64,000 bases of DNA from Methylobacterium organophilum (lineage in GTDB: Bacteria; Pseudomonadota; Alphaproteobacteria; Rhizobiales; Beijerinckiaceae): positions 120,036 to 184,035 of the forward strand of contig NZ_BPQV01000012.1 of the NCBI RefSeq assembly GCF_022179465.1, in the 5' to 3' direction. The notes beneath the pieces were generated by a model that worked only from the letters and a program-made list of their open reading frames with translations, ran no database searches and was not told the DNA's origin. Of the stretch, positions 1 through 15,501 are shown in pieces. The position numbers and the translations under genes are program-made. How positions within the stretch are numbered: position 1 is the first letter of the stretch; each line of letters opens with the position of its first letter.

Positions 1-439
1 CGCCCGGCAGGTTCGAGCCGCGCGCGGCGCTGGCCAGCGACAATCCGAGTCTGATGAGATCATGAACTGGATTACCGATGACCGCTTGATCAAGATCGCG
101 GATCTGGATGTCGACCCGACCATCGGTATCGGCAAGCGGGCCAAGATTACCGAGATGGCAGTCGCCGCAGATCCAGATCGGCGGTCCCTCAGGTAGGGTG
201 CCCCGGGAGAGGCCGTCGAGCCACTCGTAGAAACGCAGCGTGTTGCCCCGGACATAGGCATGCGCCGATCGCGCCATCTTGAGTCTGCGCTGGTGCTCCA
301 GCACGGCCGCTCGTTCGTTCGGCTCACACAGGCCGTCGTGACGCATTCCATGACCTTTTACGCGACGCTGGTTGTGCCTGCGCAGCGAAGCCGTATCCGT
401 TTTCAGTCGAGTGTGCAGGGCAGTAGGAGCCTCCGACAT
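1..439 (-). CDS. DUF2252 family protein (C-terminus beyond window)
   Basis: The visible 146 residues begin MSEAPTALHTRLKTD and continue to the window edge. The stretch RSAHAYVRGNTLRFYEW followed by WICGDCHLGNLG and IQIRDLDQAVIGNP matches the N-terminal half of DUF2252 (COG4320), a family distantly kinase-like in its CGDxHxGN motif; its function is not established. I chose the ATG at 437-439 because the frame is open from there; the preceding GGGAAC is a weak ribosome site. An internal ATG at 277 would be too short for the family. The gene lies about 100 bp from the tRNA-Lys fragment, so it should be the chromosomal neighbour on the left of the island. Confidence 0.75.
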   Translation of the reverse strand, partial: MSEAPTALHTRLKTDTASLRRHNQRRVKGHGMRHDGLCEPNERAAVLEHQRRLKMARSAHAYVRGNTLRFYEWLDGLSRGTLPEGPPIWICGDCHLGNLGPLADTDGRVDIQIRDLDQAVIGNPVHDLIRLGLSLASAARGSNLPG

Positions 440-544: not shown

Positions 545-587
545 TTTGGTGAGCGCGCTGGGACTCGAACCCAGACCTACAGATTAA
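545..587 (-). repeat. Displaced 3' half of tRNA-Lys (left attachment site)
   Basis: This stretch repeats the 3' half of the intact tRNA-Lys at 12209-12284: the encoded CCA end (547-549 on this strand), acceptor strand, T arm, variable loop and 3' anticodon stem, stopping inside the anticodon loop (AGATTAA). The only internal difference is one missing G between the T stem and the variable loop (CCCAGACC here, CCCAGGACC there). After position 587 the similarity ends abruptly. A tRNA 3' fragment lying downstream of the intact gene in the same orientation is the usual mark left by a tRNA-targeting integrase. The fragment cannot fold into a tRNA. Confidence 0.85.
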
Positions 588-762
588 GTTAATTGCCGAT
601 CGGAAAAAGCAATTATAAATCAATGATCTGTGTGTCCAGGGCAGGCATGACGAACGAGCGAAATCCATATACGAGCGACCTGGGTTTGGACACAGCCTGA
701 GCGCCTCGTAGAGGCCCCTCCCCTATCAGGCCGATCCGGTGGCATGGGTCGCTCGCGCGGCG

Positions 763-1065
763 TCCGACATGCTGGGCGGGTTGGGCGCAGGTCAGATCCT
801 GCTGGGTGATCGGGCCTACGACAGCGACGCGTTGCGCGTCCAGATGGCTGAGCAGGGCGCGTAGGCTAACTTGAGGCCGATGCCCAACCGCAAGCAGGTG
901 CCGGCTTTCAGCCTGTTCCCCTACAAGTACCGCAATCTCGTCGAGCGCTTCTTCAGCAAGATCAATCACTTCCGAGCCGTCGCCACGTGCTACGACAAGG
1001 ATCCCGAGAACTTCCTGGCCAGCGTCAAGCTCGCAGCCGTGCGGGTCTTACTACGAACTTTATGA
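763..1065 (+). pseudogene. IS5-family (IS427-type) transposase, C-terminal remnant
   Basis: The frame reads GDRAYDSDALRVQMAEQGA, a TAG stop at 862-864, then a tail with RNLVERFFSKINHFRAVATC and FLASVKLAAVRVLL. This is the C-terminal part of an IS5/IS427-type DDE transposase; the Asp of GDRAYD and the Glu of VERFF are two of the three catalytic acids. Family members usually carry Trp where the TAG lies, so TGG to TAG is the likely lesion. The N-terminal half, with the first catalytic Asp, is missing. The element is therefore dead. It lies about 175 bp inside the left end of the island. Confidence 0.75.
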
Positions 1066-1382
1066 GTCCCTTACCTATTCCACGACCTATGCAAATTTTC
1101 TGGCAGTGCCAGCTTGGTTGTCGAAGTCTCGGGGAGTCAAAATGGCTCACGCCTCTCAAGCAGTTGGCTATATTAAATCTGTATGTTTTTATATTTTTTG
1201 TTTTCTGGAAAATTATTCTGATTATGTTCGGTCATTGTTGAACTTTGAAAAATCGAGATGATTTTATCGATATTGGTGGCTTTCGTGACGTTGCACACAT
1301 CAATTGCGAGCCGAATGATTCAACTATAACGCGTTCGAACTTAAGCCAGAAACTCGAACGCGCCATCAGAGGAAGAGGTGTT

Positions 1383-1628
1383 ATGAATTATTTTTTAAAT
1401 TCCCCAGAAGCTTTCGAAAATCTAAACGATGCGCAGCTCGATGGTATCGTGGGTGGATGGTCATTTTTTCCTCGCCCAGATATTCACAGAATTGATTGGA
1501 AAGACGGAAAATATGTAACAACTGCCATTCATAAATACAAAGATGGTAAATATGAATTAGATAAAAGTGCGCTTGAAGAGTTGAGGAAAATCAATGGAGG
1601 GATATATACTGGAGCCGTCGGGATATAG
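1383..1628 (+). CDS. Small peptide precursor with double-glycine-type leader
   Basis: The product is 81 residues. A leader (MNYFLNSPEAFENLNDAQLDGIVGG in two pieces: MNYFLNSPEAFEN then LNDAQLDGIVGG) ends in Gly-Gly with the spaced hydrophobic residues typical of leaders cut by C39-peptidase ABC exporters. A mature part of about 56 residues would follow, starting WSFFPRPD. It contains two copies of KDGKY (DWKDGKYVT and KYKDGKYEL). The ATG at 1383 was chosen because AGAGGAAGAGG precedes it; a longer frame from 1245 has no such site. The gene is AT-rich, unlike nearly everything around it, and no exporter or immunity gene is visible. I do not recognise the mature sequence. The leader reading is inference. 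Confidence 0.5.
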   Translation: MNYFLNSPEAFENLNDAQLDGIVGGWSFFPRPDIHRIDWKDGKYVTTAIHKYKDGKYELDKSALEELRKINGGIYTGAVGI

Positions 1629-2707
1629 ATTTTCTACAGAACTATGAGAATAAAAATAAAATATTTCCTGAGTTTGTGACCTCAATCGTGCCTTGGATCG
1701 GGCTTAATGGCAGGTTGCTGCATGTACTAGCTGTAGCTTGCCAAATGGCTCGATCCGAAGGGGCTGCGGTCGATGCCTCGGCTCTCGCCCGATCCGTTAT
1801 CGCGCGCCTGGAATCCACGACCGTTCAGCACGGGGCTGCCCTGCGCCGCGCCATCCTTGCCGCGCCGGTGGTCCGTGAGTGACGAACCGCCCGCCCAGCA
1901 CTTCGAGCGCTACCTGAAGGATGCGGATCGGGCCTGCCGGAGCGCTATCGCAACCTGGGCTGGCCACGACCTCAACCCGCACCGTTTCTCTTCCGGGCCG
2001 TTCTGCGGACAATGAAGCTCATCAATGCTCAGTCGGTCGGGCTTTTAAAATTTCTCCGAAGATATATCCAATTTCGATGAGTACTTTTCTCGGCGCCCTG
2101 CAGGCCATGCATAATTTTCATTTTGCGAATAATTTATTAGTTTGATTGTCAATTCGTGAATATAAGTAATTCATATTATATTTCGTCATCTTTGAGAGAT
2201 TTTGAAGGCAACGCTATCTGCCTTGACTCGATATCTCGCGCAGAAATGCTGGCAGATAAAATTTAATCAGTCCACGAATTGCAGGTTGCAATGTCTCGTC
2301 GTTTTGCCAATCAGGATGCTCGGCTTGGTCGCGCACGCCATCGGTCGCGTGTTGTGCTAGATCGCCCGAGGGCGGTCTGCCTTCTGGACGCGCCCGACGA
2401 TTTACAGCGATCTATCCGGGAGCAGACATTGCAGAGCGGCTGCCTATGCTCAAGGTGCTCACCCGGGGCGTCGCGCTCGTCATCGGTGGTCAGGAGTACA
2501 GGTATCGCCTTCTTAGGGACTTGCCCTCCTCCCTGTTTGACTCCGTCGTCCGGAATATGTGGAGCTAGTCCGTCGTCTCGCAATCCTTGATCTTGCCGAC
2601 CAAGGTCAAACTCTTGGGCAATGCCAGCTTTCAGCCGCTGTCGCTCTCGAAGCGTGCTTTATAGAGTAGCAGCCCGACGGAAGCGAACGCGTATCCATAA
2701 GAGTCTG
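1629..2707. other. Gene-poor, mosaic stretch of the island
   Basis: About 1.1 kb without a gene I can name. Overlapping short frames at 1676-2015 (+) do not resemble any family I recognise and look like decayed coding sequence. Positions 2030-2290 are AT-rich. A 40-residue frame at 2446-2568 (+), starting MLKVLTRGVALVIGGQ, extends upstream without a start codon, so it may be the tail of a lost gene. Nothing here supports an RNA gene. The region separates the peptide gene from the end of the minus-strand uptake operon. Confidence 0.5.
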
Positions 2708-4096
2708 TCACGATCGCAGTGTGATCAATCGGTCCGCGATCCGCTCGGCCATCTCCGCGTCATGCGTGACGAAGAGGATGGCGAGACCGTCACGCTCGCT
2801 TGCCTCGCGCAGCATCCCCGCAACCTGCATCTGGTTGATGGGATCGAGGCGCGACGTCGCCTCGTCCGCGAACAGAAAGACGGGATCGAGCAAGAGCACG
2901 CGTGCCAGGGCGAACCTCTGTAGTTCACCACCTGAGAGTTCACCGGGGCGCTGCTTTCGAAGACGAGGCGACAGCTTCAGGCGAGAGAGCAGCGCCTCGA
3001 CACGCTCCAGGTCCAAGCCATGCCTTCGCGCCAGGTGGTCGAGCGCCCGTCCCATGTTCTGGTGCGGCACGAAAGCCGCCGGAGGATCCTGGTAGAGCTT
3101 CTGGAACCTGTTCGGTGCGGCACCCGGTGCGCGTTGGACCCAGCCGCGATCCGGCCTCTCGGTACCGACGAGGATGTTACCGAGCGTGGTCTTGCCGCTG
3201 CCGCTCGGGCCGACCACGGCGACGATCTCGCCCGCACGGACTTGGACGCTCAGGTCCATGAACAGTCGCCGGCGCCCGAACACTTTCGCCAAGCCCGTCC
3301 CATTGATCACGACGGAGCCTAGCTGCCGCGGCGCGCAGTGCGGCCAGGTGCTCGGGTCGGCGTCGATCAGCGCCCGCGTGTAGGGATGGACGGGCGCATC
3401 GAGGACCTCCGCCGTCGGCCCCGCCTCGACCGCATGCCCGTCGAGCATCACGCAGGTCGTGCCGCCAAGGGCACGGGCCAGCGCGATGTCGTGCGTGATC
3501 GTCAGGAGTAAGCGCCCGGCCGCGACCTCGCGCTGCAGCCGCGCGACGACATCGCCACGCAAGACGCCGTCGAGGCCCTTACTAGGCTCGTCGGCGAGAA
3601 GGATTGGGGCTTCCGCCGCGTGCGCCATGGCGAGTGCGAGGCGCTGGCACATGCCGCCCGACATCTGGAACGGGTAATGCCCATCCGCCTCGGTGAGGCC
3701 GACCTCGTCAAGCCCGGCGGCGGCGTGACGGTCCGCGTCGCGTCGACGGTGCACGTACCGGTGGACCTCGGCGAGTTGCCCCTTAGCCCGCATTGTCGGA
3801 TCGAGGGCGGTCCAGGGCTCTTGGGGGAGGAGACCGATGCGCCGTCCCCATAGGTTCCGTCGCGCCGCGCCGTCGAGGCGCAGGAGATCCGCGCCATCGA
3901 GGAGGATACGGCCGCTCGCGACGAGACCCGGCGGCAAGGTCCCCATGATGGCCTGGGCCACGAGCGACTTGCCCGAACCGGACTCGCCGAGCAGTGTCAG
4001 CGGCTCGCCCCGCCCGACCGCAGCCGAGAAGCCGGAGACCAGAACCCGGCCTTCCGTGCGGATCGTGAGATCCTCGATGCGTAGGGCTGTCGTCAC
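2708..4096 (-). CDS. Double-ATPase subunit of a Dpp/Nik-type ABC importer
   Basis: This 462-residue protein fuses two nucleotide-binding domains, equivalent to DppD+DppF or NikD+NikE. The first has GESGSGKS, signature MSGGMCQR and Walker B ILLADEPSKGLD. The second has GPSGSGKTT, LSGGELQR and FLFADEATSRLD. It would power import through the two permeases encoded just upstream. The GTG at 4096 overlaps the TGA of the preceding permease gene (GTGA), which fixes the start; a longer frame upstream to 4876 is only the shadow of the permease. It is the last gene of the riboswitch-led operon. The substrate cannot be read from the ATPase. Confidence 0.85.
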   Translation of the reverse strand: MTTALRIEDLTIRTEGRVLVSGFSAAVGRGEPLTLLGESGSGKSLVAQAIMGTLPPGLVASGRILLDGADLLRLDGAARRNLWGRRIGLLPQEPWTALDPTMRAKGQLAEVHRYVHRRRDADRHAAAGLDEVGLTEADGHYPFQMSGGMCQRLALAMAHAAEAPILLADEPSKGLDGVLRGDVVARLQREVAAGRLLLTITHDIALARALGGTTCVMLDGHAVEAGPTAEVLDAPVHPYTRALIDADPSTWPHCAPRQLGSVVINGTGLAKVFGRRRLFMDLSVQVRAGEIVAVVGPSGSGKTTLGNILVGTERPDRGWVQRAPGAAPNRFQKLYQDPPAAFVPHQNMGRALDHLARRHGLDLERVEALLSRLKLSPRLRKQRPGELSGGELQRFALARVLLLDPVFLFADEATSRLDPINQMQVAGMLREASERDGLAILFVTHDAEMAERIADRLITLRS

Positions 4097-4929
4097 CGGA
4101 CTGTGCCTCCGCGCGCGGTGAGCTGCAGGCCGAGCACCAGCAGGAAGATCAGGATCCCGGGCATCAGCACTGCCAGCGGCGCCTCGGCGTAGTAAGGCAG
4201 GAGCTCGACGATCATGCTGCCGAGCTCGGGCGTCGGCGGCTGCAGGCCGACGCTGATCGCCGACAGGGTCGAGATCGCCAGGATGGCCGTGCCCATCGCG
4301 AAGGAGGCCAGGGTCAGGAGGAGTGGCGTGATCTCCGGCAGCACGTGGTGGCGCAGGATGTAGAACGTGCCGAAGCCGAGCAGGCGCGAGGCCTCGATCC
4401 GCGGCTCGACGAGCAGACGCGCCGTCGTGGTGCGGGCGACGCGGAAGAACTCGACCCAGAGCGAGAGCGACAGGCCGAGGTAGAGCGGAAGGAAATGACC
4501 CGGCGCGAACGCCAGCAGGAGCAGCACGAGCAGCAGCCCCGGCAGGGCGAGGACAATGTCGGACAGGGCCACGAGGATCCGTTCCGTCACGCCGCCGTGC
4601 CAAGCCGCCAGCACGCCGAGCAGGAGCCCCGGCACCGCGGCGCTCAGCATGGTCAGCAGCGCCATGCCGAAGGAGAGCCGGGCCCCGTGGGCGAGCCGCG
4701 CCAGCAGGCTGCGCCCGTAATGGTCGGCCCCGAGCAGGAAGTCGCCGCCGATCGGCGCCAGGCTCGCGGACAGGTCCTGGCGGGCGGGATCGGCGCTGAC
4801 GAGGACCGGGCCCAGGAGCGCGAAGGCCGCGAGCAGGGTGAGCAGCCCGAGACCGACGCGGCGCGAGATCGGCCAAGGGTCCGAACGCAGAGGCGCCGTA
4901 CCGGCGAGGTCCTGCATCTGGATCGTCAT
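4093..4929 (-). CDS. Dpp/Nik-type ABC importer permease (DppC/NikC-like)
   Basis: The 278-residue product has an N-terminal membrane segment near residues 25-45 followed by about five more, and the BPD_transp_1 layout with the coupling region ending near EASRLLGFGTFYILRHHVLPE (20 residues of it: ASRLLGFGTFYILRHHVLPE). The first periplasmic loop contains DFLLGADHYGRSLLARL, typical of the second permease (DppC, OppC, NikC) of this transporter class. It overlaps the upstream permease gene by four bases and the downstream ATPase gene by four bases, so the subunits are probably made by coupled translation. A more specific substrate name is not justified. Confidence 0.85.
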   Translation of the reverse strand: MTIQMQDLAGTAPLRSDPWPISRRVGLGLLTLLAAFALLGPVLVSADPARQDLSASLAPIGGDFLLGADHYGRSLLARLAHGARLSFGMALLTMLSAAVPGLLLGVLAAWHGGVTERILVALSDIVLALPGLLLVLLLLAFAPGHFLPLYLGLSLSLWVEFFRVARTTTARLLVEPRIEASRLLGFGTFYILRHHVLPEITPLLLTLASFAMGTAILAISTLSAISVGLQPPTPELGSMIVELLPYYAEAPLAVLMPGILIFLLVLGLQLTARGGTVR

Positions 4930-5864
4930 CGGGCGGCCCCCAGGCGAGGGTCGAGGAGCCGGCAGAGCAGGTCGACCCCGAGGTTCAGGAGGACGAACAT
5001 CAGGCCCATGACGAGGGCGGCGCCCTGGACCATCGGCACGTCACGGGCGATGACTGCGTGCACCAGTGCGTGGCCGATGCCCGGATAGGCGAACAGCGAC
5101 TCGACCACGACGACGCCCTCGATGAGGTAGACCGCCTGGAGGCCCAGGTAGGTGACGACCGGTATGGCGGCGTTGCGCAACCCGTGCCGAACGAGCACTG
5201 CGCGCTCGGGCAGGCCCTTGAGCCGGGCGAAGCGGTAGTAGGTCGTGGCCCCGACCTCCGCGACGGCGTCGCGTGTCACGCGGCTCGACACGGCAGCGAG
5301 TCCTAGCGCCAGGGTCAGGCTGGGCAGCGCCATCTCGCGCCAGGTGCCGTAGCCGGCGGGCGGCAACCATTCGAGCCGGATGCTGAAGACCAGCATCAGC
5401 ATGAGGCCGAGGACGAAGGGGGGCAGCGCCCGCAAAGCCACGGCTCCGATCAGCGCGAGGCGGTCGAGGCCCGATCCAGCCCGCAGGCCGCTCACGAGGC
5501 CGAGCGGCAGGCCGATCAGCAGGGACAGGATGAGGGCGCAGGCGGCGAGCCACAAGCTGGGCCCGAGCTGGCTCACGAGTTCTTCCGAGACCGACTCACC
5601 GCTGACCAAGGAGTTGCCGAGGTGTCCCCGGGCGAGTTCGCCGAACCAGCGCAGCAGCAGTTCCGGCCAGGGTCGATCGAGGCCAAGTTCCTGCCGGACG
5701 GCCTCCGCGGCCTGCCCAGTGAGCGCGTCCGGGCCGTAACGGTCGGCGGCGATGCGGAAGGCCCCGTCGCCGGGCAGAACCCTGACGAGGGCGAAGCACA
5801 AGCCGCCGACGACGAGCGCGACGAGCACGGCCTGGACCAGCCGCCCGAGGAGAAGGCGCGTCAT
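4926..5864 (-). CDS. Dpp/Nik-type ABC importer permease (DppB/NikB-like)
   Basis: The 312-residue product starts MTRLLLGRLVQAVLVALVVG, the usual first membrane helix of DppB/NikB permeases. It contains LGLDRPWPELLLRW in the first loop and a coupling segment RFARLKGLPERAVLVRHGLR, plus roughly five further hydrophobic helices. It forms the inner-membrane channel with the next gene product. The ATG overlaps the stop of the binding-protein gene (ATGA), giving tight coupling. Length and layout match the family, and no lesion is seen. Confidence 0.85.
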   Translation of the reverse strand: MTRLLLGRLVQAVLVALVVGGLCFALVRVLPGDGAFRIAADRYGPDALTGQAAEAVRQELGLDRPWPELLLRWFGELARGHLGNSLVSGESVSEELVSQLGPSLWLAACALILSLLIGLPLGLVSGLRAGSGLDRLALIGAVALRALPPFVLGLMLMLVFSIRLEWLPPAGYGTWREMALPSLTLALGLAAVSSRVTRDAVAEVGATTYYRFARLKGLPERAVLVRHGLRNAAIPVVTYLGLQAVYLIEGVVVVESLFAYPGIGHALVHAVIARDVPMVQGAALVMGLMFVLLNLGVDLLCRLLDPRLGAAR

Positions 5865-7435
5865 GGTGTATTCCAGCGCATCTCGGCGAGCCCGTAGCTC
5901 CGTTCCAGGGGATCGGCGCGCACGCCGGCCACGCGCCGGTTGGCGACCACGGCCAACTCGGCCCAGGTCACCGGGATGACCGGCAACTCGGCCTGTAGGA
6001 TCTCCGCCAGCCTGCGCTGCAGTGGTGCGCGCTCGGCCGGATCAACGAGGACGGTGAGCCGGTCGAGAAGGGTGGCGGTTTCGGCGCTCGGCCAGTTCAT
6101 CGCTCCCCAATCACCCCCGTCCGGCCCGAAATCCTGCAGCAGGGTGCCCAGCGGATCCGGGATCATCGCGAAGCTGCGAGAGACCAAGCCAAGATCCAGG
6201 CTGCCGTCGCGATGGCGGGCCGGGATGTCCGAGGTGTTGCCGATCGAGACGGCGAGATCGATGCCGACCTCGCGGGCCTGGGCCTGGATGGCTGCCGCCA
6301 GGGGCGGCAGCTCGGGCCACGCGGAATAGGTGCGCAAGGTGGCCGAGAATCGATGGCCGTCCCGCTCCAGGATGCCGTCCGGTCCTGGCCGCCAGCCAGC
6401 CTGGGCCAGGAGGAGACGCGCCTGGACGAGGTCGCGGGTCAGCGGCGGGAGTCCTTCAGCATGCCAGCCCGCGACGGCGGGCGGGAAGAGCTGGTCGGCC
6501 CCGAGGCCGGCGTTGCGCAGCAAGACCTTGGCGAGGCCGGCGCGGTCGAGGGCGAGGCTCAGCGCGCGCCGGGCGCGCGGGTCGGAGAAGAGCGGAGAGC
6601 CCGCGTTCAACTTCAGGAGCCGGGTCCGGGGTGGCGTGACCGTCTGCACCACGAGCTTCGGGTCGCGGCGCAGACGTGCGAGCGAGACTGGAAGGATCGA
6701 GACCACGACGTCAGCTTCGCCGCTTTCAGCCATCAGGGCGCGCGTCTCGCCCTGACCGACCGCGAGGTAGCGCGCCCGCGCAATGGGGGGGCATCCGCCC
6801 CACCAGCCGTCGAAGCGCTCCAGCTCGATCCGGAGCGGCGGCGCGATCGCGGTGGCGCGATAGGGCCCCGTGCCGATCATGCGGACGACGCGTCCGCTCG
6901 GGTCGTAGGAGGCAGGTGCCAGGATGATCGTGGTGTGGTTCGCCAGGAAGGCCGGCAGCAGCGCGAATGGCCGCTCCAGGTTGACGACCACGACGTCGTC
7001 CTCGGCAGCGATCGCCGCGATGGGGACGCGGGACAGTGGGCCGACATTCGCTTGCGCGCGCCGCAGGCTCCCGGCCGCAGCATCCGCATTCAGGGGCGCG
7101 CCGTCGTGGAACCGGACGCCCGTGCGGAGCGGGAAGCGCCACGTGAGACCGTCCGGCGAGACCGTCCAGCCGGTCGCGAGGCCAGGCGCGGGCGCGCCGG
7201 CGGCATCGACGCCGACTAGGGTCTCGGCCACCTGCAGGCGTGTGAAGGCGTACCCGTTGCTCGACGGATCGAGGCCCGCAACCTCCCAGGGGCCGACGAC
7301 GATCAGCGTGCGCTCGGCTGTGTTCCGATCCTTGGCGGTGCCGGCGGCTGTGGGGACGGCAGCGAGGGCGAGAAAGCCGGCAAGCCTGAGCAGACCGCGG
7401 AGGACGACGCGGCGCTGCCGGTGCGAGAACATCAT
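5861..7435 (-). CDS. Periplasmic substrate-binding protein, SBP_bac_5 family
   Basis: The 524-residue protein belongs to the peptide/nickel/oligosaccharide binding proteins (family 5), with TERTLIVVGPWEVAGLDP-type start of the mature domain and GVRFHDGAPLNADAAAGSL, the conserved 'DG.P..A' stretch. The start at 7435 (or 7432, two ATGs in tandem) gives a signal sequence with an RQRRVVLRG pattern ahead of a hydrophobic run, so export by Tat is possible, although Sec cannot be excluded. It follows the receptor gene by 32 bp. In this family ligands include di- and oligopeptides, haem, nickel or cobalt chelates and opines. The riboswitch upstream favours a cobalt- or corrinoid-related ligand, which is inference. 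Confidence 0.85.
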   Translation of the reverse strand: MMFSHRQRRVVLRGLLRLAGFLALAAVPTAAGTAKDRNTAERTLIVVGPWEVAGLDPSSNGYAFTRLQVAETLVGVDAAGAPAPGLATGWTVSPDGLTWRFPLRTGVRFHDGAPLNADAAAGSLRRAQANVGPLSRVPIAAIAAEDDVVVVNLERPFALLPAFLANHTTIILAPASYDPSGRVVRMIGTGPYRATAIAPPLRIELERFDGWWGGCPPIARARYLAVGQGETRALMAESGEADVVVSILPVSLARLRRDPKLVVQTVTPPRTRLLKLNAGSPLFSDPRARRALSLALDRAGLAKVLLRNAGLGADQLFPPAVAGWHAEGLPPLTRDLVQARLLLAQAGWRPGPDGILERDGHRFSATLRTYSAWPELPPLAAAIQAQAREVGIDLAVSIGNTSDIPARHRDGSLDLGLVSRSFAMIPDPLGTLLQDFGPDGGDWGAMNWPSAETATLLDRLTVLVDPAERAPLQRRLAEILQAELPVIPVTWAELAVVANRRVAGVRADPLERSYGLAEMRWNTP

Positions 7436-7467
7436 GCGGTTCGAGTCTCCACGACGGGAAGCGGGCT

Positions 7468-9693
7468 TCAGAACCTCGCGGCGACGCCGCCCATGATGGT
7501 GCGCGGCGTGCCGGGCGTGGCGTAACGGTTCTGCCAAGCGCGGTCGTAGTAGATGGTGTCGAAGACATTATCGACGTTGAGGTAAACTCGCACGTCTGGC
7601 GTGATCCGATAGTACGAGATCAGGTTAAAAAGCGTGTACTCTGGCAGGTTGAACGTCGAGACTGCCGTTCCGGCGGTGCGCTGACCGACGAAGTTCACCC
7701 CTGCCCCGAGGCCGAGGCCGCGCAGGTCACCCCCCTGGAACTCGTAGACGCTCTGGAGCGCGAAGGCGTTCTCGGGGACGTTGGCGATGTGCGAACCGAC
7801 CGGGATGGTGTTGTCGCGAGTCACGGCGGCGTCGGCGTAGGTGTAGGTTCCGATCACCCGCCAGCCCGGCGCGAGGTAGCCCGCAACGGTGAGATCAAAG
7901 CCGCGGCTGCGGATCTCCCCCGCCGCGACGCTGAAGTTCTGGTCCACGGGATCGGTGGTCAGGACGTTGGTTCGCTTGATCTCGAACAGGGCGGCGGTGG
8001 CATTCAAGCGCCCGTCGAGCAGGTCGAACTTCGCGCCGACCTCGTAGCCCTCGCCCTCCTGGAAGGCGAAGGGCCGGAAGTTGCGGTCCGTGCCGGTGTT
8101 CGGCCGGAACGAGCGGGCATAGTTGCCGTAGACCGAGACCGTCTCGAGGAGGTCATAGACGAGGCCGAAGCGCGGCGTGGCGGCCGTGCCCTGCAGGCTC
8201 GTGGTGCGGTTGGTGATGTAGGAGGTCGAGACGAGGCCGATATCCTCGACGCGCACGCCGACGAGGGCATGCAGGCGTGGAGTGATGTCGATCTGGTCCT
8301 GCACGTAGCCGGCGTAGCTCTGTGTGTTCTCCAGGAGATTGCTGCCCGCCACGGTGAGCGGCGGCAGCACTTGGCCGTAGCGGGGCGCGAACAGATCGAG
8401 GAAGAACGGGTTGGTGGTAGGGTTCGAGCGGTTGATCACCTCACGGTAGCGGTAGCTGTCGTATTCGAGCCCGAGCAGCAGCGTGTGGCGGAACGGGCCG
8501 GTCTCGAACTTGCCCGCGAGGTTGACCTGGAGGTCGACGTCCGACCACGTCAGCTCGCGATGATCGAAAGTGCGCCGGAGCGTGCGCCCATCCGGGAGGA
8601 CGCCCACGGTCTGCACGGCGTCGCCCGCGATGTTGCCGGCCAGCACCTGCGTGCCGGCGGTCAGCACCCAATCGGGGTCGAAGCGGTGCTCGATGCGCAA
8701 CTGCCCGAGGGCATTGTCGTTGCGGAAGGGGGCAAGGCCGGGCTCTCCGATGTAGCGGGTCTGCGGCACGGCGCGCAGGTCGCCACGGAACGGGACGATG
8801 CCGCGGTCGAAGATCTGCCCGGCGCTGATCAATTCGCCTTCGAGCGTGATCGTCGTGTCCGCCGTAGGCTTCCAGGCGATGGCGGGCGCGAGGTAGTAGC
8901 GGTCGCTCCTCCCGAAGTCACGGAAGCTGCCGTTGTCCTCCACGGCCCCCGTGATGCGGGCGAGCACCTGGCCGTTCTCGTCGAGGGCGCCGGTGGCGTC
9001 GAGGGTGCTGCGCTTGGTATTGAAGCTTCCGTACTGCGTGTCGACGGCAAGGGAGCGCTCGGCCAGCGGCTGCTTCGAGACGATGTTGAAGGTGCCGCCC
9101 GGATCCCCCCGGCCGTAGAGGAAGGCGGAAGGACCCTTCAGAACCTCAACGCGCTCGATCGAGGCGATATCGGGCGAGTTCGGGTAGCCGCGGTTGATCG
9201 GGAAGCCGTTGCGGTAATACTCGCCTGTGGCGAAGCCGCGGATGGTGAACTCTGTCAGTCCAAGCCCGGCGAAATTGTTGGCCCGACCGACGCCGGCGAG
9301 GTCAAGGGCGGTGTCGATCCGGGTCGCGGCGGCGTCTTCGAGCACTTGGTTCGGGACGACGACGACCGCCTGAGGCACCTCTCGCAGGGGGGTATCGGTG
9401 CGGGTCGCGCTGACGCTCTGCTTCGCGAGATAGCCATCCGTGACGAGGCGAGGACCGGATTTCCCTTGGACCGTGAGTTCGTCCAGCTGCACCTCCTGAG
9501 TCGCGTCGACGGCCAGTTGCGCAGACGCGGCGATCGGATCGAGGCCGACGGCAAGGTAGGCAGCCAGGGCGACGGTGCACGACCACGCCTGCTTTCGACT
9601 GGGGCCGAACGCGGCAACATAATCGACCCGGCCGCTGGGCTTGCGAGCGAATGGAGATGATTCCGAGAGCGTGAGACCTGACCGGCGCGGCAT
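7468..9693 (-). CDS. TonB-dependent outer-membrane receptor (siderophore-receptor type)
   Basis: About 741 residues. A hydrophobic export segment ends near IAASAQ, followed by a possible TonB box (LDELTVQG). The plug domain contains REVPQAVVVVPNQVLED, FTIRGFATGEYYRNG and VEVLKGPSAFLYGRGDPGG. A 22-strand-type barrel ends in the usual terminal Phe (GGVAARF). The plug is of the siderophore receptor class (FhuE/FpvA-like) rather than BtuB itself. The ATG at 9693 is preferred by family alignment; another in-frame ATG at 9789 lies only about 30 bases from the riboswitch. It heads an operon with a complete family-5 ABC importer and follows a cobalamin riboswitch, so expression should fall when cobalamin is plentiful. 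Confidence 0.85.
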   Translation of the reverse strand: MPRRSGLTLSESSPFARKPSGRVDYVAAFGPSRKQAWSCTVALAAYLAVGLDPIAASAQLAVDATQEVQLDELTVQGKSGPRLVTDGYLAKQSVSATRTDTPLREVPQAVVVVPNQVLEDAAATRIDTALDLAGVGRANNFAGLGLTEFTIRGFATGEYYRNGFPINRGYPNSPDIASIERVEVLKGPSAFLYGRGDPGGTFNIVSKQPLAERSLAVDTQYGSFNTKRSTLDATGALDENGQVLARITGAVEDNGSFRDFGRSDRYYLAPAIAWKPTADTTITLEGELISAGQIFDRGIVPFRGDLRAVPQTRYIGEPGLAPFRNDNALGQLRIEHRFDPDWVLTAGTQVLAGNIAGDAVQTVGVLPDGRTLRRTFDHRELTWSDVDLQVNLAGKFETGPFRHTLLLGLEYDSYRYREVINRSNPTTNPFFLDLFAPRYGQVLPPLTVAGSNLLENTQSYAGYVQDQIDITPRLHALVGVRVEDIGLVSTSYITNRTTSLQGTAATPRFGLVYDLLETVSVYGNYARSFRPNTGTDRNFRPFAFQEGEGYEVGAKFDLLDGRLNATAALFEIKRTNVLTTDPVDQNFSVAAGEIRSRGFDLTVAGYLAPGWRVIGTYTYADAAVTRDNTIPVGSHIANVPENAFALQSVYEFQGGDLRGLGLGAGVNFVGQRTAGTAVSTFNLPEYTLFNLISYYRITPDVRVYLNVDNVFDTIYYDRAWQNRYATPGTPRTIMGGVAARF

Positions 9694-9817
9694 CGTGGGA
9701 GCCCTTGATCGGACAAGGGCAGCTTCAGGCACGCGTGCGCGAGAGCGGGCGGTCAGTGCCTGCCACGGCCATGCGTTCCCTTCGGACACCCCGCCCGAGA
9801 AACAAAAACATCGCCAA

Positions 9818-10005
9818 GGCAGGTCTCCTGGCTCGCGGGTCGTCGCCTCTGCCTGACCTTCCCGGCGCGGGGCGCCAGTGGTCGTTCTCGGCAGCAGCTC
9901 GCCGCTTACAGTTGCGGGGGCAGCTCCGGTCTCACCCTGACGGGCTTCACCGAATTCCCTCTTAGCTCACGGCTACAGGGCCGTGAGAACCTTGACGGTC
10001 GCTCT
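9818..10005 (-). promoter_or_regulatory. Cobalamin riboswitch upstream of the TonB receptor operon
   Basis: Read on the minus strand, the stretch has the ordered landmarks of a class I cobalamin riboswitch: a GGTGAAGCC-like segment, the B12 box GCTGCCCCCGCAACTGTAAG (revcomp of about 9901-9924), an internal GGGAAGGTCAGGCAG element, and the 3' signature CGCGAGCCAGGAGACC ending near 9820. It lies between the divergent promoter region and the receptor gene at 7468-9693. Known members shut off B12, cobalt or corrinoid uptake genes when adenosylcobalamin binds. The exact ends are approximate. Confidence 0.9.
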
Positions 10006-10204
10006 CATCGGTCGTGCAAGTACGGGAGTCAACCTATCGAACGCAGCTTGTCGATACGTCGCGCGTCCGACTCAGGGTCGTCCGTTCTTGTTCGGCAACA
10101 AAGAGAGCCTTTGACTGCAGTGCCCCGTTCATAAGTCGAGGCATCACAGATCAAATATCGCTAATAGATTCTCGTCGATTATTTCCAGTCTCGACGGGTT
10201 TGAG

Positions 10205-10394
10205 TCGAAGTGCCGACGGTATATCGGCGGCGGTTCTCCCTGAAGATCAAAAGGGAGCGCAGTGAGGGTCTTTGCCCCGATACCGCGGCTGCCTCCGCAA
10301 CTGTGAGCGGCGAACCTTCCGCTGCCAACGTCACTGCATGAACCTGATCCGGGAAGACGGTGAGAGGGCAAAGACCTGCGAGCCAGGAGGGGCG
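10205..10394 (+). promoter_or_regulatory. Second cobalamin riboswitch, divergent from the first
   Basis: The plus strand has CGAAGTGCCGACGG, the box GCTGCCTCCGCAACTGTGAG, GTCACTG, ATCCGGGAAGACGGTGAGAG, and the terminal signature CTGCGAGCCAGGAGG. These are the conserved parts of a cobalamin riboswitch, slightly more divergent than the first copy. It points away from the first one, with about 200 bp between them holding both promoters. Downstream is a good ribosome site (GGAGG at 10429-10433) and the broken start of a second receptor gene, so the switch now probably controls nothing useful. Confidence 0.85.
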
Positions 10395-10442
10395 CCGAGG
10401 CCTCGTTCGCGGTGACGTGCCAATGCCGGAGGCTTGTCTCCC

Positions 10443-10705
10443 GTGTCCTTTGCCCTTCGATCCGCTCTGCGGAGCGCACTGGCGCTGTCCTATTGCCGGC
10501 CCTGCTCGCTTCGCCTGCTGTCCAGGCCCAGCAGGTCACCGCACCCTTCGCGAATGAACTGTGCGGCGGCGAGGCCGACGTCTTGCTCTCCGAGATCTCG
10601 GTGCTCGGCCGAGACGGCTTGAGCCGGTGTCGAGGCGCGATCAAATCAATTCATCGGGCACGTAAGCCGCCGACTTGGCAAGTGGCGTTCGCGGGATCGT
10701 TGTGA
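10443..10705 (+). pseudogene. Truncated TonB-dependent receptor, N-terminal remnant
   Basis: A GTG at 10443 sits nine bases after GGAGG. The first frame gives VSFALRSALRSALALS. Around 10490 the reading must shift by one base to continue as LLPALLASPAVQAQQ, which completes a signal peptide, then LLSEISVLGRDGLSRC, the usual segment just after the signal peptide and TonB box of these receptors. Sequence similarity then ends; no plug or barrel follows. So the gene has both a frameshift and a large 3' loss. Its position directly after a cobalamin riboswitch suggests a second B12-regulated receptor once stood here. Confidence 0.55.
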
Positions 10706-10815
10706 ATCGGGATCGGTTGGGCCCGGGCCGCAGCAGGGCTGATAGGATGCCGCCAGCCACTCGCCTCGACACTTGGCTGCGACTATCACGTGCTGCCCCT
10801 ATCCGGAGAAGATGC

Positions 10816-11190
10816 ATGTTCACGCACATCATGATCGGCAGCAACGACCTGGAACGGGCGCGAAGCTTCTACGATGCCACGTTCGCCGCGCTCGGAGGCA
10901 GGTCCGGCAAGATGGATGAGCGAGGTAGGCTGATCTACGCCCACGAGGGCGGCCGGTTGATGATCACGACGCCGATCGATGGCAATCCGGCGACCGCTGC
11001 AAACGGCGGGACCATCGGGATCGCCGCCGCCAGCCGCGACCACGTTCTCGCTTGGCATGCGGCCGGCACGAAGCACGGCGGCACTGCGATCGAGAGCCCG
11101 CCTTCAGAGCGACCGAACGGGGCTTTCGTGGCCTACCTCCGTGATCCAGACGGTAACAAACTCACCGCGCGGACCGTGCCGGCGAAGTGA
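10816..11190 (+). CDS. VOC (glyoxalase/bleomycin-resistance fold) family protein
   Basis: The 124-residue product starts MFTHIMIGSNDLERARSFYD and ends with AYLRDPDGNKLTART, both standard for the vicinal-oxygen-chelate superfamily, whose members bind a divalent metal through paired beta-alpha-beta-beta-beta units. His4 and a Glu-equivalent region are present but the reaction cannot be inferred. The ATG at 10816 is preceded by GGAGAAG. It stands alone in the right part of the island, downstream of the receptor remnant and upstream of a secreted protein gene. Confidence 0.8.
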   Translation: MFTHIMIGSNDLERARSFYDATFAALGGRSGKMDERGRLIYAHEGGRLMITTPIDGNPATAANGGTIGIAAASRDHVLAWHAAGTKHGGTAIESPPSERPNGAFVAYLRDPDGNKLTARTVPAK

Positions 11191-11284
11191 GGAGCCCGGC
11201 CCTCCCTGCCACGCCGGCCGTCCGTGCTATACTGCCAAGCAGCGTCGCGCCCGATTCAGGCCGCGCGCCAGGCAGGACGAGCCC

Positions 11285-11779
11285 ATGAAGGCGATCGCTC
11301 TTGCGGCTCTCACAGCCGCGCTCACGAGTGCAGCACCCGCTGCCGCGCAAACGACGGCCAGCCCCCACGGCTTCACGGTACAGGTCTCCCTCTCGCCCAA
11401 GGCGCTGAAGAAGCTGACCGACCTCTCCGAAAGCGTGACCGTGAGCTCGTTCTACTACTACGAGAGGGCTAGGAAGCCGACGCGCGCCGAGATCAAGCGT
11501 GCGCAGGCTGATGGCCAAGAGCCCGGCGCGTACGAGATCGCGGGCGACACGGTGACCATTCCGGCCGCCGGTGGCCTTGCCGAGATGCCCGGGTTTGGCG
11601 TCAACGCCGCGGATGCGACCTCGATCGACGAGAACCCAATCAAAGTGAACATCAACGTCTACTCCGCCCGCAAGGCGGCGCCGGACAACCTGCTCGACTG
11701 CGACCTTTTCGCGGACACAGTGACCGCCGCCAGGGCCAAGCCGATCAGCATCACCTGCCGACTGATCGGCGAGTCATAA
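11285..11779 (+). CDS. Secreted protein of unknown function
   Basis: The 164-residue product begins with a clear Sec signal peptide (MKAIALAALTAALTSAAPAAAQ, cleavage near residue 22, shown here in parts as MKAIALAALTAAL...PAAAQ). The mature part is rich in beta-forming residues, includes FYYYERARKPTRAE and ends NLLDCDLFADTV...ITCRLIGES, giving two cysteines that could form a disulfide. I do not recognise a family. It lies between the VOC gene and the integrase tail; the 95-bp gap to the VOC gene leaves operon membership open. Confidence 0.65.
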   Translation: MKAIALAALTAALTSAAPAAAQTTASPHGFTVQVSLSPKALKKLTDLSESVTVSSFYYYERARKPTRAEIKRAQADGQEPGAYEIAGDTVTIPAAGGLAEMPGFGVNAADATSIDENPIKVNINVYSARKAAPDNLLDCDLFADTVTAARAKPISITCRLIGES

Positions 11780-11942
11780 GCACAGCCGGTTACTCAGCTC
11801 GACCACCTTCTCAGCACTCGCGTCGTGATCTCTTCTCGGGTGAGCTTGGTGCGCTGACAGAACACGCCGCAAGGCGCGTCTCGGTGCCCGTCCACCCGGA
11901 CGGCCCGCTGCGCTTCCATCACCCTCACGGCCGCGGCCTCGG

Positions 11943-12116
11943 GATACCGAGGCAGAGGTGTCGGCGATCGTGGAAATGTCGGAGCAGATGGTCCGCCACT
12001 ACTCGAAGGACGTGAACAAGCACTGCCTCGCCATCAACGGGATGAAGAAGCTGGAGGAGGCCTGGAAGGAGACCCGCGCCAACCTTTTCGGCTCCGGATC
12101 CGCCTCAGCGCATTGA
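11943..12116 (+). pseudogene. Tyrosine recombinase (phage-type integrase), C-terminal remnant
   Basis: The frame reads TEAEVSAIVEMSEQMVRHYS, then KDVNKHCLAINGMKKLEEAW and a stop at 12114-12116. This matches the end of phage-type integrases, where a helix 'D.E...I.GHS..M..HY' carries the last catalytic His and the Tyr. Here the Tyr of RHYS would be the nucleophile. Just upstream LTAAASG is readable one frame over, so a single-base frameshift lies near 11943. Nothing further upstream resembles the catalytic Arg region. The gene ends about 90 bp from the intact tRNA-Lys, where an island integrase is expected. Confidence 0.5.
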
Positions 12117-12208
12117 GGGGTTTGGACACAGGTTGCGGGATCTTGGACACGCGCTGAGATTGGACATCGCCAATCGAAGGTCCAAGCCACTGTAGAGCAA
12201 GGGTAATT

Positions 12209-12284
12209 TGGTGAGCGCGCTGGGACTCGAACCCAGGACCTACAGATTAAAAGTCCGTTGCTCTACCAGCTGAGCTACGCGCTC
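12209..12284 (-). tRNA. tRNA-Lys (anticodon UUU)
   Basis: Read on the minus strand, the 76 bases fold as a full cloverleaf: acceptor GAGCGCG/CGCGCTC, D arm with AGCTCAGCTGGTAGAGC, anticodon stem ACGGA/TCTGT around loop CTTTTAA (anticodon TTT), variable AGGTC, T arm CTGGG-TTCGAGT-CCCAG, discriminator A and an encoded CCA. Its 3' half is duplicated at 545-587. The gene is therefore the integration target: its 5' half is chromosomal and its 3' half is probably supplied by the island, which keeps the gene functional. Confidence 0.97.
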
Positions 12285-13508: not shown

Positions 13509-14657
13509 TCACGCCTTCTGTGCCGCCTCCGCGCGGGCCCAGCCTTCCTTCGTGGCGCCGATGAAGTCGGCGAGCCGGCCCTCCGCGATGGCCGCCCGCA
13601 GGCCCGCCATCAGGTCCTGGTAGTAGGCGAGGTTGTTCCAGGTCAGCAGCATCATGCCGAGGATCTCGTCCGAGCGGACGAGGTGGTGCAGATAGGCGCG
13701 GGAATAGTCCCGCGCCGCCGGACAGGTGGAGGCCTCGTCGAGGGGCCGGGTGTCCTCGGCATGCCGGGCATTGCGCAGGTTGATGCGGCCGTGGCGGGTA
13801 TAGGCGAGACCGTGGCGCCCGGCCCGGGTCGGCATCACGCAATCGAACATGTCGACCCCGCGCAGGACGGACTGCATCAGGTCGTCCGGCGTGCCGACGC
13901 CCATGAGGTAGCGCGGCTTCTCCGCCGGCAGGTAGGGCTCCACCGTCTCGATCATGGCGAGCATCACCGCCTGCGGCTCGCCCACCGCGAGGCCGCCGAT
14001 GGCGTAGCCCTTGAGGTCGAGAGCGGCCAGCGCCTTCGCGCTTTCGATGCGCAGGTCCGGCAGGTCGCCGCCCTGCACAATGCCGAACAGGGCCTTGCCC
14101 GGCTGCTCGCCGAAGGCGACGCGGCAGCGCTCGGCCCAGCGCAGGGACAGGCGCATGCCCTTCTCGATGGTGGTGCGGTCGGCGGGCAGGCGCACGCATT
14201 CGTCGAGCTGCATCTGGATGTCGGAGCCGAGCAGCCCCTGGATCTCGATGGAACGCTCCGGGCTCATATGATGGGCGGTGCCGTCGATATGCGAGCGGAA
14301 GGTCACGCCCTGCTCGTCGATCTTCCGCAGGGCGGAGAGCGACATTACCTGGAAGCCGCCGGAATCGGTGAGGATCGGCCCGTCCCAGCGCATGAATTTG
14401 TGCAGGCCGCCGAGGCGCGCCATGCGCTCCGGCCCGGGGCGCAGCATCAGATGGTAGGTGTTGCCGAGCACCACGTCGGCGCCGAGGTCGCGCACTTGGT
14501 CGGCATACATCGCCTTCACGGTGGCGGCCGTGCCGACCGGCATGAAGGCCGGGGTGCGGATGGTGCCCCGGGGCATGGTGATGGCGCCGGTACGGGCTTG
14601 CCCGTCCCGGGCATGGACCGCGAAGGCGAAGTCGGAGGAAAAGGGCGTATCGGGCAT
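13509..14657 (-). CDS. tgt: tRNA-guanine transglycosylase
   Basis: The 382-residue enzyme swaps G34 for preQ1 in tRNAs with GUN anticodons. [17 protein letters not shown] places the general-base Asp at residue 98, and [18 protein letters not shown] places the nucleophile Asp at 272. The C-terminal zinc site is unusual: where Escherichia coli Tgt has Cys302, Cys304, Cys307 and His333, this protein has Ser310, Cys312, Ala315 and Asn341 ([19 protein letters not shown] and LLTWNNL). Three of four ligands are lost while the surrounding fold motif is intact. It is the last gene of the queA-nucleotidyltransferase-tgt run, 34 bp after its neighbour. ATG at 14657 starts the family's usual N-terminus. 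Confidence 0.95.
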
Positions 14658-14691
14658 CGTTTCGCGGGGATGGGATCGGAACGGCGTCGGC

Positions 14692-15501
14692 TCAGGCTTG
14701 AGGGCGAGGCGCCGATGCGATGATGAAGTGCATGTAGGCGAGGGCGGCCCTGAGGCTCGCTTGGCTCGTGCGTTTCGGGCCGCCGTCGTGGATCGCAAGC
14801 GCCTCGTTCAGCACGCGATGCCACGACACGGGCGCCGTCCGAAGGCCGAAGCGGCCACCTTCCCTCTTCGAGACGATGTCGTCCGTCGCAAGCGTGCAGG
14901 CGCAGCGCCCGATGCCGAGAACGCCCCAGGCGAGCGCGGCAGCGTTGCAATCCTCGCCCGGCGCCTTGGCGGCGAGCGCGGTCTCTGCCTCGGCGATCCA
15001 GGAGCGCCAGTAGCCGTGCAGGTTCGCGATCTGGTGGGCCCGCAGGACGTCCGTATCGTTGGCGATGCCGAGTTCGGAGGGCGCCGGCCCCAGGATCCGA
15101 CGCCCGTACCGGGCAAGGCAGCGCCAGACGGCGGGATTGAGCTCGCGGCAGAGCTCGCCGGTGCGGAAGCGGCCATCGACGCTGAACGGCATGACCGCCT
15201 CGCCCGGAGCCGGCTCACGAAGCAGGCTGGCGGGCAGATAGACGCCGTCGAAATGTGGGCTGCCCGACCTGGCCAGATCCCCGTGAACGCGTGCGAGGCG
15301 TTCCGAGGTCTCGGTGGACGGCGCCTCGTCGAGGATGGCGACGAAATCGATGTCGCTCGCTCCCGGGCGGAAGTCGCCCAGGGCGATCGACCCAACCAGA
15401 TAGAGACCGCGCGGAGCCGGAACGTGCTCCTCCGCCAGCCGCTCCAGATAGGTGGCGAGGACCGGCTCCGCCTCGGCGGGCAGGACGCCTGCGCGGCTCA
15501 C
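14692..15501 (-). CDS. Aminoglycoside nucleotidyltransferase-like protein (ANT(3'')/DUF4111 type)
   Basis: The 269-residue protein has the nucleotidyltransferase motif [20 protein letters not shown] at about residues 37-56, with both metal-binding Asp residues, and a helical C-terminal part (DUF4111) as in AadA-type adenylyltransferases. FDGVYLP could supply the third acidic residue. The GTG start at 15501 overlaps the queA stop (GTGA). Chromosomal members of this family often have unknown natural substrates, so antibiotic resistance should not be assumed. Its placement between queA and tgt is noteworthy. Confidence 0.75.

Follow-up and report, generated by a model that had tools for sequence, protein, structure and literature searches.

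Organization of the locus

The window analysed here is a 64,000-nt stretch of Methylobacterium organophilum DNA (contig C12:120036-184035 of genome G000), and its left part holds what is very probably a decayed genomic island placed at a tRNA-Lys(UUU) gene by a lambda-type tyrosine integrase. The features are collected in Table 1. The sole tRNA detected by ARAGORN in the window was tRNA-Lys(ttt) at 12209-12284. The segment 547-587 matched the first 42 nt from the CCA end of this gene in the same orientation (E-value 1.2e-11 in a search of the genome), and two flanking T's carried the repeat out to 545. The interval separating the two copies is AT-rich in one stretch and contains an IS5 remnant, an ATP-binding cassette (ABC)/TonB operon and genes for a VOC protein and a hypothetical protein; the only tyrosine integrase sequence in the island is the C-terminal 52 residues of one. 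An earlier note on this DNA had described a same-orientation repeat of the 3' half of the tRNA at 545-587 with a one-base deletion; these coordinates were correct, with 41 of 42 positions matching. The note's reading of the locus as a tRNA-Lys island remnant with both junctions and an integrase tail adjoining the intact tRNA was supported by the repeat and by the homology at 11946-12116. The locus accordingly has the arrangement of a tRNA-targeted island, with an intact tRNA gene on one side and, on the other, a displaced piece of its 3' part that keeps the same orientation.

The single-base deletion (G) in the left copy is genuine, and a second deletion, of 2 bp (AAAAG to AAG), where the identity stops is visible only against relatives. 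Because of these indels, the 52-residue integrase remnant, the insertion sequence (IS) remnant and the short 11.7-kb span compared with relatives, the insertion is not recent, as the note had also held. Outside the island, the neighbouring genes include one that we take to be Tgt (13512-14798) and an SGNH-like gene, both names having been recognised by eye or taken from the earlier note.

The element is of an ordinary, well-known kind. Islander tDNA genomic islands (PMC4383910) have an intact tRNA gene, a same-orientation displaced 3' fragment and a tyrosine integrase gene at one end. The window shares the tRNA gene, the fragment and the position of the integrase at one end; unlike those islands, its integrase is only a tail, so the Islander integrase filter would probably reject it, and arm sites are added here to the description. 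Several islands of Methylobacterium extorquens AM1 and DM4 adjoin a tRNA and an integrase, according to PMC2680597, and the window, from the same genus group, has the same association; the string tRNA-Lys is absent from the main text of that source.

Table 1. Features of the island and its flanks in the window
Position	Strand	Feature	Basis
1-439	-	DUF2252 gene, 5' part, outside the island; gene runs on left of the window	Pfam PF10009 E 2.9e-66, full protein from contig
547-587	-	Displaced 3' part of tRNA-Lys, left junction of island	41/42 identities, one gap
588-700		Left arm of putative attachment site	First 60 nt against relatives' arms; site positions close to relatives'
631-638	-	Candidate arm site, inverted, TGTGTCCA	Counterpart 46-47 nt past core in 7/8 relatives' left ends with word
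685-695	+	Candidate arm site TTTGGACACAG	Counterpart 99-101 nt past core in 7/8 relatives' left ends with word
754-1077	+	IS5-family transposase remnant	NF033580 E 4.6e-14, below cut-off
2632-10389	-	Cargo block common to two relatives	86.6% to G073:C22; 84.9% over 2713-9570 to G122:C64
2708-4096	-	Fused two-domain ABC ATPase, oligopeptide/nickel type	Family searches
4093-4929	-	ABC permease	Pfam BPD_transp_1
4926-5864	-	ABC permease	Pfam BPD_transp_1
5861-7435	-	Substrate-binding protein, NikA-like family 5, start not fixed	Pfam SBP_bac_5 E 1.2e-69 (longer frame); NCBIfam NikA-type below cut-offs
7468-9789	-	TonB-dependent siderophore-type receptor, start not fixed	TIGR01783 344 bits, cut-off 223.5
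9801-10009	-	Cobalamin riboswitch upstream of receptor operon	Rfam RF00174 129.5 bits
10214-10410	+	Second, weaker cobalamin riboswitch, divergent from first	65.1 bits; G073 counterpart 132
10675-11190	+	VOC/glyoxalase-like protein	Pfam PF00903; DNA homology from ~10777; homologues at other loci
11946-12116	+	C-terminal remnant of tyrosine integrase, including MVRHYSKDVN	Homology to integrase C-termini; family alignment
12121-12131	+	Candidate arm site TTTGGACACAG, right end	Repeated word, position match to relatives
12143-12150	+	Second right-end candidate arm site TTGGACAC	21 bp beyond first
12209-12284	-	Intact tRNA-Lys(UUU), right junction	ARAGORN; Rfam tRNA 73.4 bits

The integrase tail and its family

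The tail contains a 52-aa open reading frame (ORF) at 11958-12116, with homology beginning at 11946, which is 79% identical to residues 365-416 of the 422-aa integrase of genome G023 (E 9e-20). Pfam gave no family for the tail, and no integrase-family match was present in G000 at E up to 1e-20. The full-length G023 integrase matched PHROG integrase families (best E 4e-26), whereas Pfam and NCBIfam assigned no family to a full-length relative. Its similarity to lambda integrase was weak by sequence (E 0.005); a comparison of the predicted fold with that of lambda integrase gave E 7.6e-6 with a low template modelling score (TM-score), the model having a predicted TM-score (pTM) of 0.41. The family alignment showed conserved blocks YTGQR, ARKTG, FHGLRK and MVRHY, which fit the tyrosine recombinase motifs R, K, HxxR and Y.

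Across the genus comparison set (112 genomes, G000 included), 17 loci of the integrase family were listed, query included, each with at least 62% identity in at least one piece. Of 16 loci read, again with the query, 11 lay beside an intact tRNA-Lys(UUU), four beside a partial copy and one beside tRNA-Thr(CGU); the seventeenth, G065:C7:2606014, adjoins a partial tRNA-Lys copy. Residues 1-98 of the G046 integrase were unmatched. At three loci (L138, L139 and L149, in G050, G045 and G110) the integrase lay inward of the partial tRNA copy and not next to the intact tRNA. In a sample of 397 genomes of the order, with at most four candidates scored per genome, three other than G055 had relatives of the integrase at E up to 1e-50; two of these adjoin tRNA-Lys(CTT) and one tRNA-Thr(TGT). 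Inspected by eye, the downstream stretches of these three were without a repeat comparable to that described below, and the arm rule was therefore not extended to them.

Arm words at the island ends

In lambda-type attachment sites the integrase binds arm sites through an N-terminal arm-binding domain (PMC8138268). The window's family resembles this type in that a relative's integrase has a predicted N-terminal strand-strand-strand-helix before the core-binding and catalytic parts, and in that short words are repeated on both sides of the core; it is unlike lambda in that the words (TTTGGACACAG and three variants) and their spacing are particular to this integrase family, with binding putative. 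Within residues 1-100 of the relative's integrase, the block was modelled with predicted local distance difference test scores of 81-91, with predicted strands at 8-12, 18-22 and 35-37 and a helix at 44-54; this region has been lost in the window. 

A search of the window with GGGTTTGGACACAG, allowing up to two mismatches, gave two matches against 0.14 expected, and one of 100 shuffles attained two. At the right end the core hexamer stands at -86 and -65 from the tRNA. Among 13 integrase-bearing ends it was found at -86/-65 (once -85/-64) in six others, and the remaining seven carried a different word. At the left end, the hexamers of the window lie about 44 and 98 nt past the core. A left arm with an inverted and a direct hexamer was present at eight of 35 partial tRNA copies in relatives, at 46-47 and 99-101 past the core in seven and at 58 and 111 in G045. 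(From this set of 35, L133, a 33-nt match in G011, was left out, and the duplicates L138, L139 and L172 were merged into L211, L207 and L216.) Other words occupied the equivalent places elsewhere: TTTGGCAACCG in G023 and G065, TTTGGAAACCG in G010, G043 and G087 (in G087 at the right end alone), and ATGCACACACC in G076 and G019. A repeated word on both arms, as in lambda-type sites, is therefore present.

A right-end repeat 21 bp apart was observed in 14 of 26 islands, the window included, and these 14 were used to compare each right word with its own left arm. The scores summed to 242, against a maximum of 235 in 100,000 shuffled pairings; with the window removed the sum was 225, and p was again about 1e-5. 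The 14 islands are related elements and incompletely independent, and for G023, G057 and G076 the ends are on separate contigs, so that their pairing was assumed. Outside this test, G099 has the window's word on the left and lacks the right-end repeat. Compared directly, the left arm of the window exceeded the shuffle maximum against eight of the 35 relatives' arms, those of G055 (49 vs 24), G076, G124, G043, G057, G046, G019 and, barely, G099. From these sequence comparisons, the two island ends in the window probably belong to one element type. With the integrase gone but both ends preserved, the words can still suggest what type of element this was, and the pairing of arm words is the part of the analysis worth following.

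Arm words and the integrase N-terminus

The 11 intact integrases were sorted by arm word into four groups (of 4, 2, 3 and 2). Mean identity within and between word groups was 77 and 47% in alignment columns 1-60, 63 and 44% in 60-110, 76 and 63% in 110-210, and 85 and 74% after 210. The groups are small, and common descent alone could produce part of this pattern. One member, L137 (G078:C1:3898219-3899463), lies beside tRNA-Thr(CGU), carries the word TTTGGCAACCG and is 97% identical in columns 1-60 to the G065 integrase at tRNA-Lys. L137 is in itself a natural change of target, an integrase of the tRNA-Lys family at tRNA-Thr(CGU). In columns 111-200 it is 67% identical to the G065 integrase, and tRNA-Lys members are 59-73% identical to it; because the divergence of L137 here is no greater than among tRNA-Lys members, the part of the integrase that chooses the target was not located.

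This pattern fits arms that are read by the integrase N-terminus regardless of the tRNA target. We lean towards a more general reading, in which the tRNA-Lys integrases of the genus would follow an arm-site code: the N-terminal domain would read one of at least four words of 10-11 bp (TTTGGACACAG, TTTGGCAACCG, TTTGGAAACCG or ATGCACACACC) at near-constant positions on both arms, and another part of the protein would pick the tRNA. If so, arm words could pair the ends of decayed islands, as in the window. Among the relatives, the family offers four types of word, one switch of tRNA target and ends that can be matched, which makes the reading of arm sites by the integrase, separate from the core, directly testable.

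Position of the crossover

In 30 of the 35 relatives' partial copies the match reached position 45 or beyond, and in 23 it stopped at 45 or 46; position 45 marks the 5' limit of the anticodon loop (CTTTTAA). A crossover in this loop had been read earlier from the place where the identity ends in the window (AGATTAA), an argument that did not hold. The window copy has GATTAAGTTAATTGCC where relatives have GATTAAAAGTTATTTGCC or GATTAAAAGTTATTGCC, and seems to have lost two A's besides the G already noted. Because this 2-bp deletion sets where the match stops, the crossover cannot be placed from where the identity stops in the window, and in those 30 copies the match continues through the loop. 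Comparison of the copies instead confines the crossover to the anticodon loop or further into the 3' half. A position within the loop is likely, judging from the relatives together with established knowledge of tyrosine integrases.

Occupied and empty sites in relatives

A pattern search for the 3' end of tRNA-Lys, allowing three mismatches, hit at least twice in 23 of the 112 genus genomes; the left copy of the window escapes this search because of its gaps. With the multi-copy genomes G065, G078 and G079 set apart, 13 genomes had neighbouring copies on one contig, the further copy being on the CCA side, in the same orientation and 5.7-69 kb away (by eye); only G124 among them had a shorter spacing than the 11.7 kb of the window. 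Three copies were in order in G019, the outermost 100 kb from the intact gene. G065, G078 and G079 gave 5, 7 and 3 pattern matches, many far apart, with both orientations in G065 and G078.

Filled and empty sites could be matched for related islands. The left flank of the partial copy in G043 could be aligned with that of an intact tRNA in G018 for 678 bp (85% identity), starting 2 bp out in each. Alignments of 3834 bp (83%) and 3820 bp (82%) to G007 were obtained for G046 and G109, respectively, and in both pairs the two sequences began to match ~187 bp out. G043 and G046 carry the integrase family to which the tail in the window belongs. By these alignments, the empty-site test is passed by related islands of the family.

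For the window, the earlier note had predicted an empty site in relatives in which DUF2252, one complete tRNA-Lys and the SGNH-like gene follow one another. No such site was found: among 268 sequences, many with only ~1.5 kb of flank, 37 had DUF2252 and 180 a tRNA-Lys copy, and the only four with both were the window's own. None of the seven named loci with an SGNH-like protein, all from Methylobacterium or Methylorubrum (the window's own record possibly omitted), had DUF2252. In the nearest same-contig cases found by eye (G055, G100 and G047), DUF2252 and tRNA-Lys were ~22-24 kb apart, with DUF2252 on the other side of the tRNA. Because DUF2252 was not found beside tRNA-Lys in relatives, the left flank was not validated as the ancestral neighbour. 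The left neighbour of the intact tRNA-Lys is itself not conserved: no ORF cluster was common to more than four of 24 relative loci, some of which had less than 8 kb on that side or carried an island.

Origin of the island

The explanation preferred here is that an element with a lambda-type tyrosine integrase recombined its attachment site with the 3' half of tRNA-Lys(UUU), and that both island ends in the window stem from a single event. The gene at 12209-12284 would owe its intact 3' half to the copy carried by the element, and the original one would have been displaced to the far end, now 547-587, with strand exchange probably in the anticodon-loop region. The N-terminal domain of the integrase would have bound TTTGGACACAG-type sites on both arms, the candidates being 631-638, 685-695, 12121-12131 and 12143-12150. 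Later, the integrase except for its last 52 residues and other mobility genes would have been lost, and an IS5 copy, now a remnant, would have entered. Self-excision would no longer be expected. The full integrase with transfer or phage genes that marks an active integrative element was not found among the frames searched (the transport genes, VOC protein, IS5 piece and unknowns, not every small ORF being covered).

Several observations weigh against this account. Among the 268 sequences, many of which had only ~1.5 kb of flank and none of which was a close relative, none offered an empty counterpart of the left flank seen in the window, and the first 187 bp were unaligned between G046 and G007. 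The structure model of the integrase has a pTM of 0.41 and gave low TM-scores. The TTTGGAAACCG and TTTGGCAACCG types are not cleanly parted, since the right word of G043 gives a score of 16 not only with its own left arm but also with the left arms of G010 and G065, and the left arm of the window was not above shuffles against the family arms of G010, G023, G045, G050, G065 and G078. Finally, no word is commoner than that of the window, carried by 8 of the 14 islands if the window is counted, so that a matching pair of ends could also come from two different elements of this type.

The last point bears on the alternative to which we give most weight, while still considering it unlikely: the two ends would come from separate insertions of related elements at one tRNA, a tandem array whose middle was partly deleted, leaving a composite of 11.7 kb. 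Tandem copies at tRNA-Lys do exist, as the three in G019 show, the commonest word is common to many islands, and the distance between copies was larger in 12 of the 13 same-contig relatives (by eye). On the other side, G000 has one pattern copy, with the left fragment the only addition of its type among the matches listed, and the same word type stands on both ends near the expected positions. It is a good deal less probable that the interval is an old chromosomal segment and that the left copy arose by a duplication or rearrangement which also brought DUF2252. The location of DUF2252 elsewhere in the relatives examined would agree with this, as would the spread of VOC gene homologues across the genus, with matches to some part of 10620-11945 in 55 of the 112 genomes, counting G000. 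Against it stand the apparent attachment-site arm that follows the left copy, the integrase tail at the right side and the substrate-binding protein of the ABC/TonB block, which is present in only four of the 112 genomes, G000 included (E up to 1e-60). The block is thus sporadic, as expected of accessory island cargo, and the VOC gene, by contrast, is common. That the left copy is a chance or pseudogene-like tRNA fragment is hardly credible: such fragments do occur in genomes, but the match had E 1.2e-11, many relatives have the same pattern, and the ends of their matches cluster at positions 45-46 (23 of 35).

Cargo operon

The block at 2632-10389 sits elsewhere in G073 and G122, and no tRNA was found in the matching stretches of G073:C22 and G122:C64. 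Beyond the block and the riboswitch-like piece, no DNA match was common to the G073 and G122 stretches on the receptor side, and on the other side the G122 contig ends. The earlier note would have abandoned the island had the genes at 2.7-12 kb been found elsewhere in a conserved chromosomal context. The operon (2.6-10.4 kb) does occur elsewhere in relatives, but its surroundings differ where they can be compared, so that no conserved context was seen for it. A B12-regulated uptake operon is in this way found in differing surroundings among related species. Recent transfer of the cargo is not claimed; the 86.6% identity to G073 is only slightly above the 76-83% seen in long matches of conserved window DNA, and for such matches to G073 and G122 the range is 75-84%.

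The uptake operon is apparently intact and controlled by a B12 riboswitch, and its role is likely the uptake of a cobalt chelate or corrinoid. In G073, the second riboswitch faces an operon, the counterpart of which is missing in the window; by eye, the genes that follow it are presumably btuB, btuF, btuC and btuD. Three further frames, the SGNH-like, the hypothetical and the small-peptide one, were without a Pfam family.

Left part of the island

Within the AT-rich stretch, a small ORF at 1383-1628 (+) has an N-terminus, LNDAQLDGIVGG, that by eye resembles a double-glycine leader peptide; the longer frame was without a family match. A 62-bp stretch at 1079-1140, containing the inverted repeat CTGGCAGTGCCAG, was found at 84-87% identity in many genus genomes, several of which had more than one. 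The segment 1853-2317 is 83% identical to C16:118756-119223 of the same genome.

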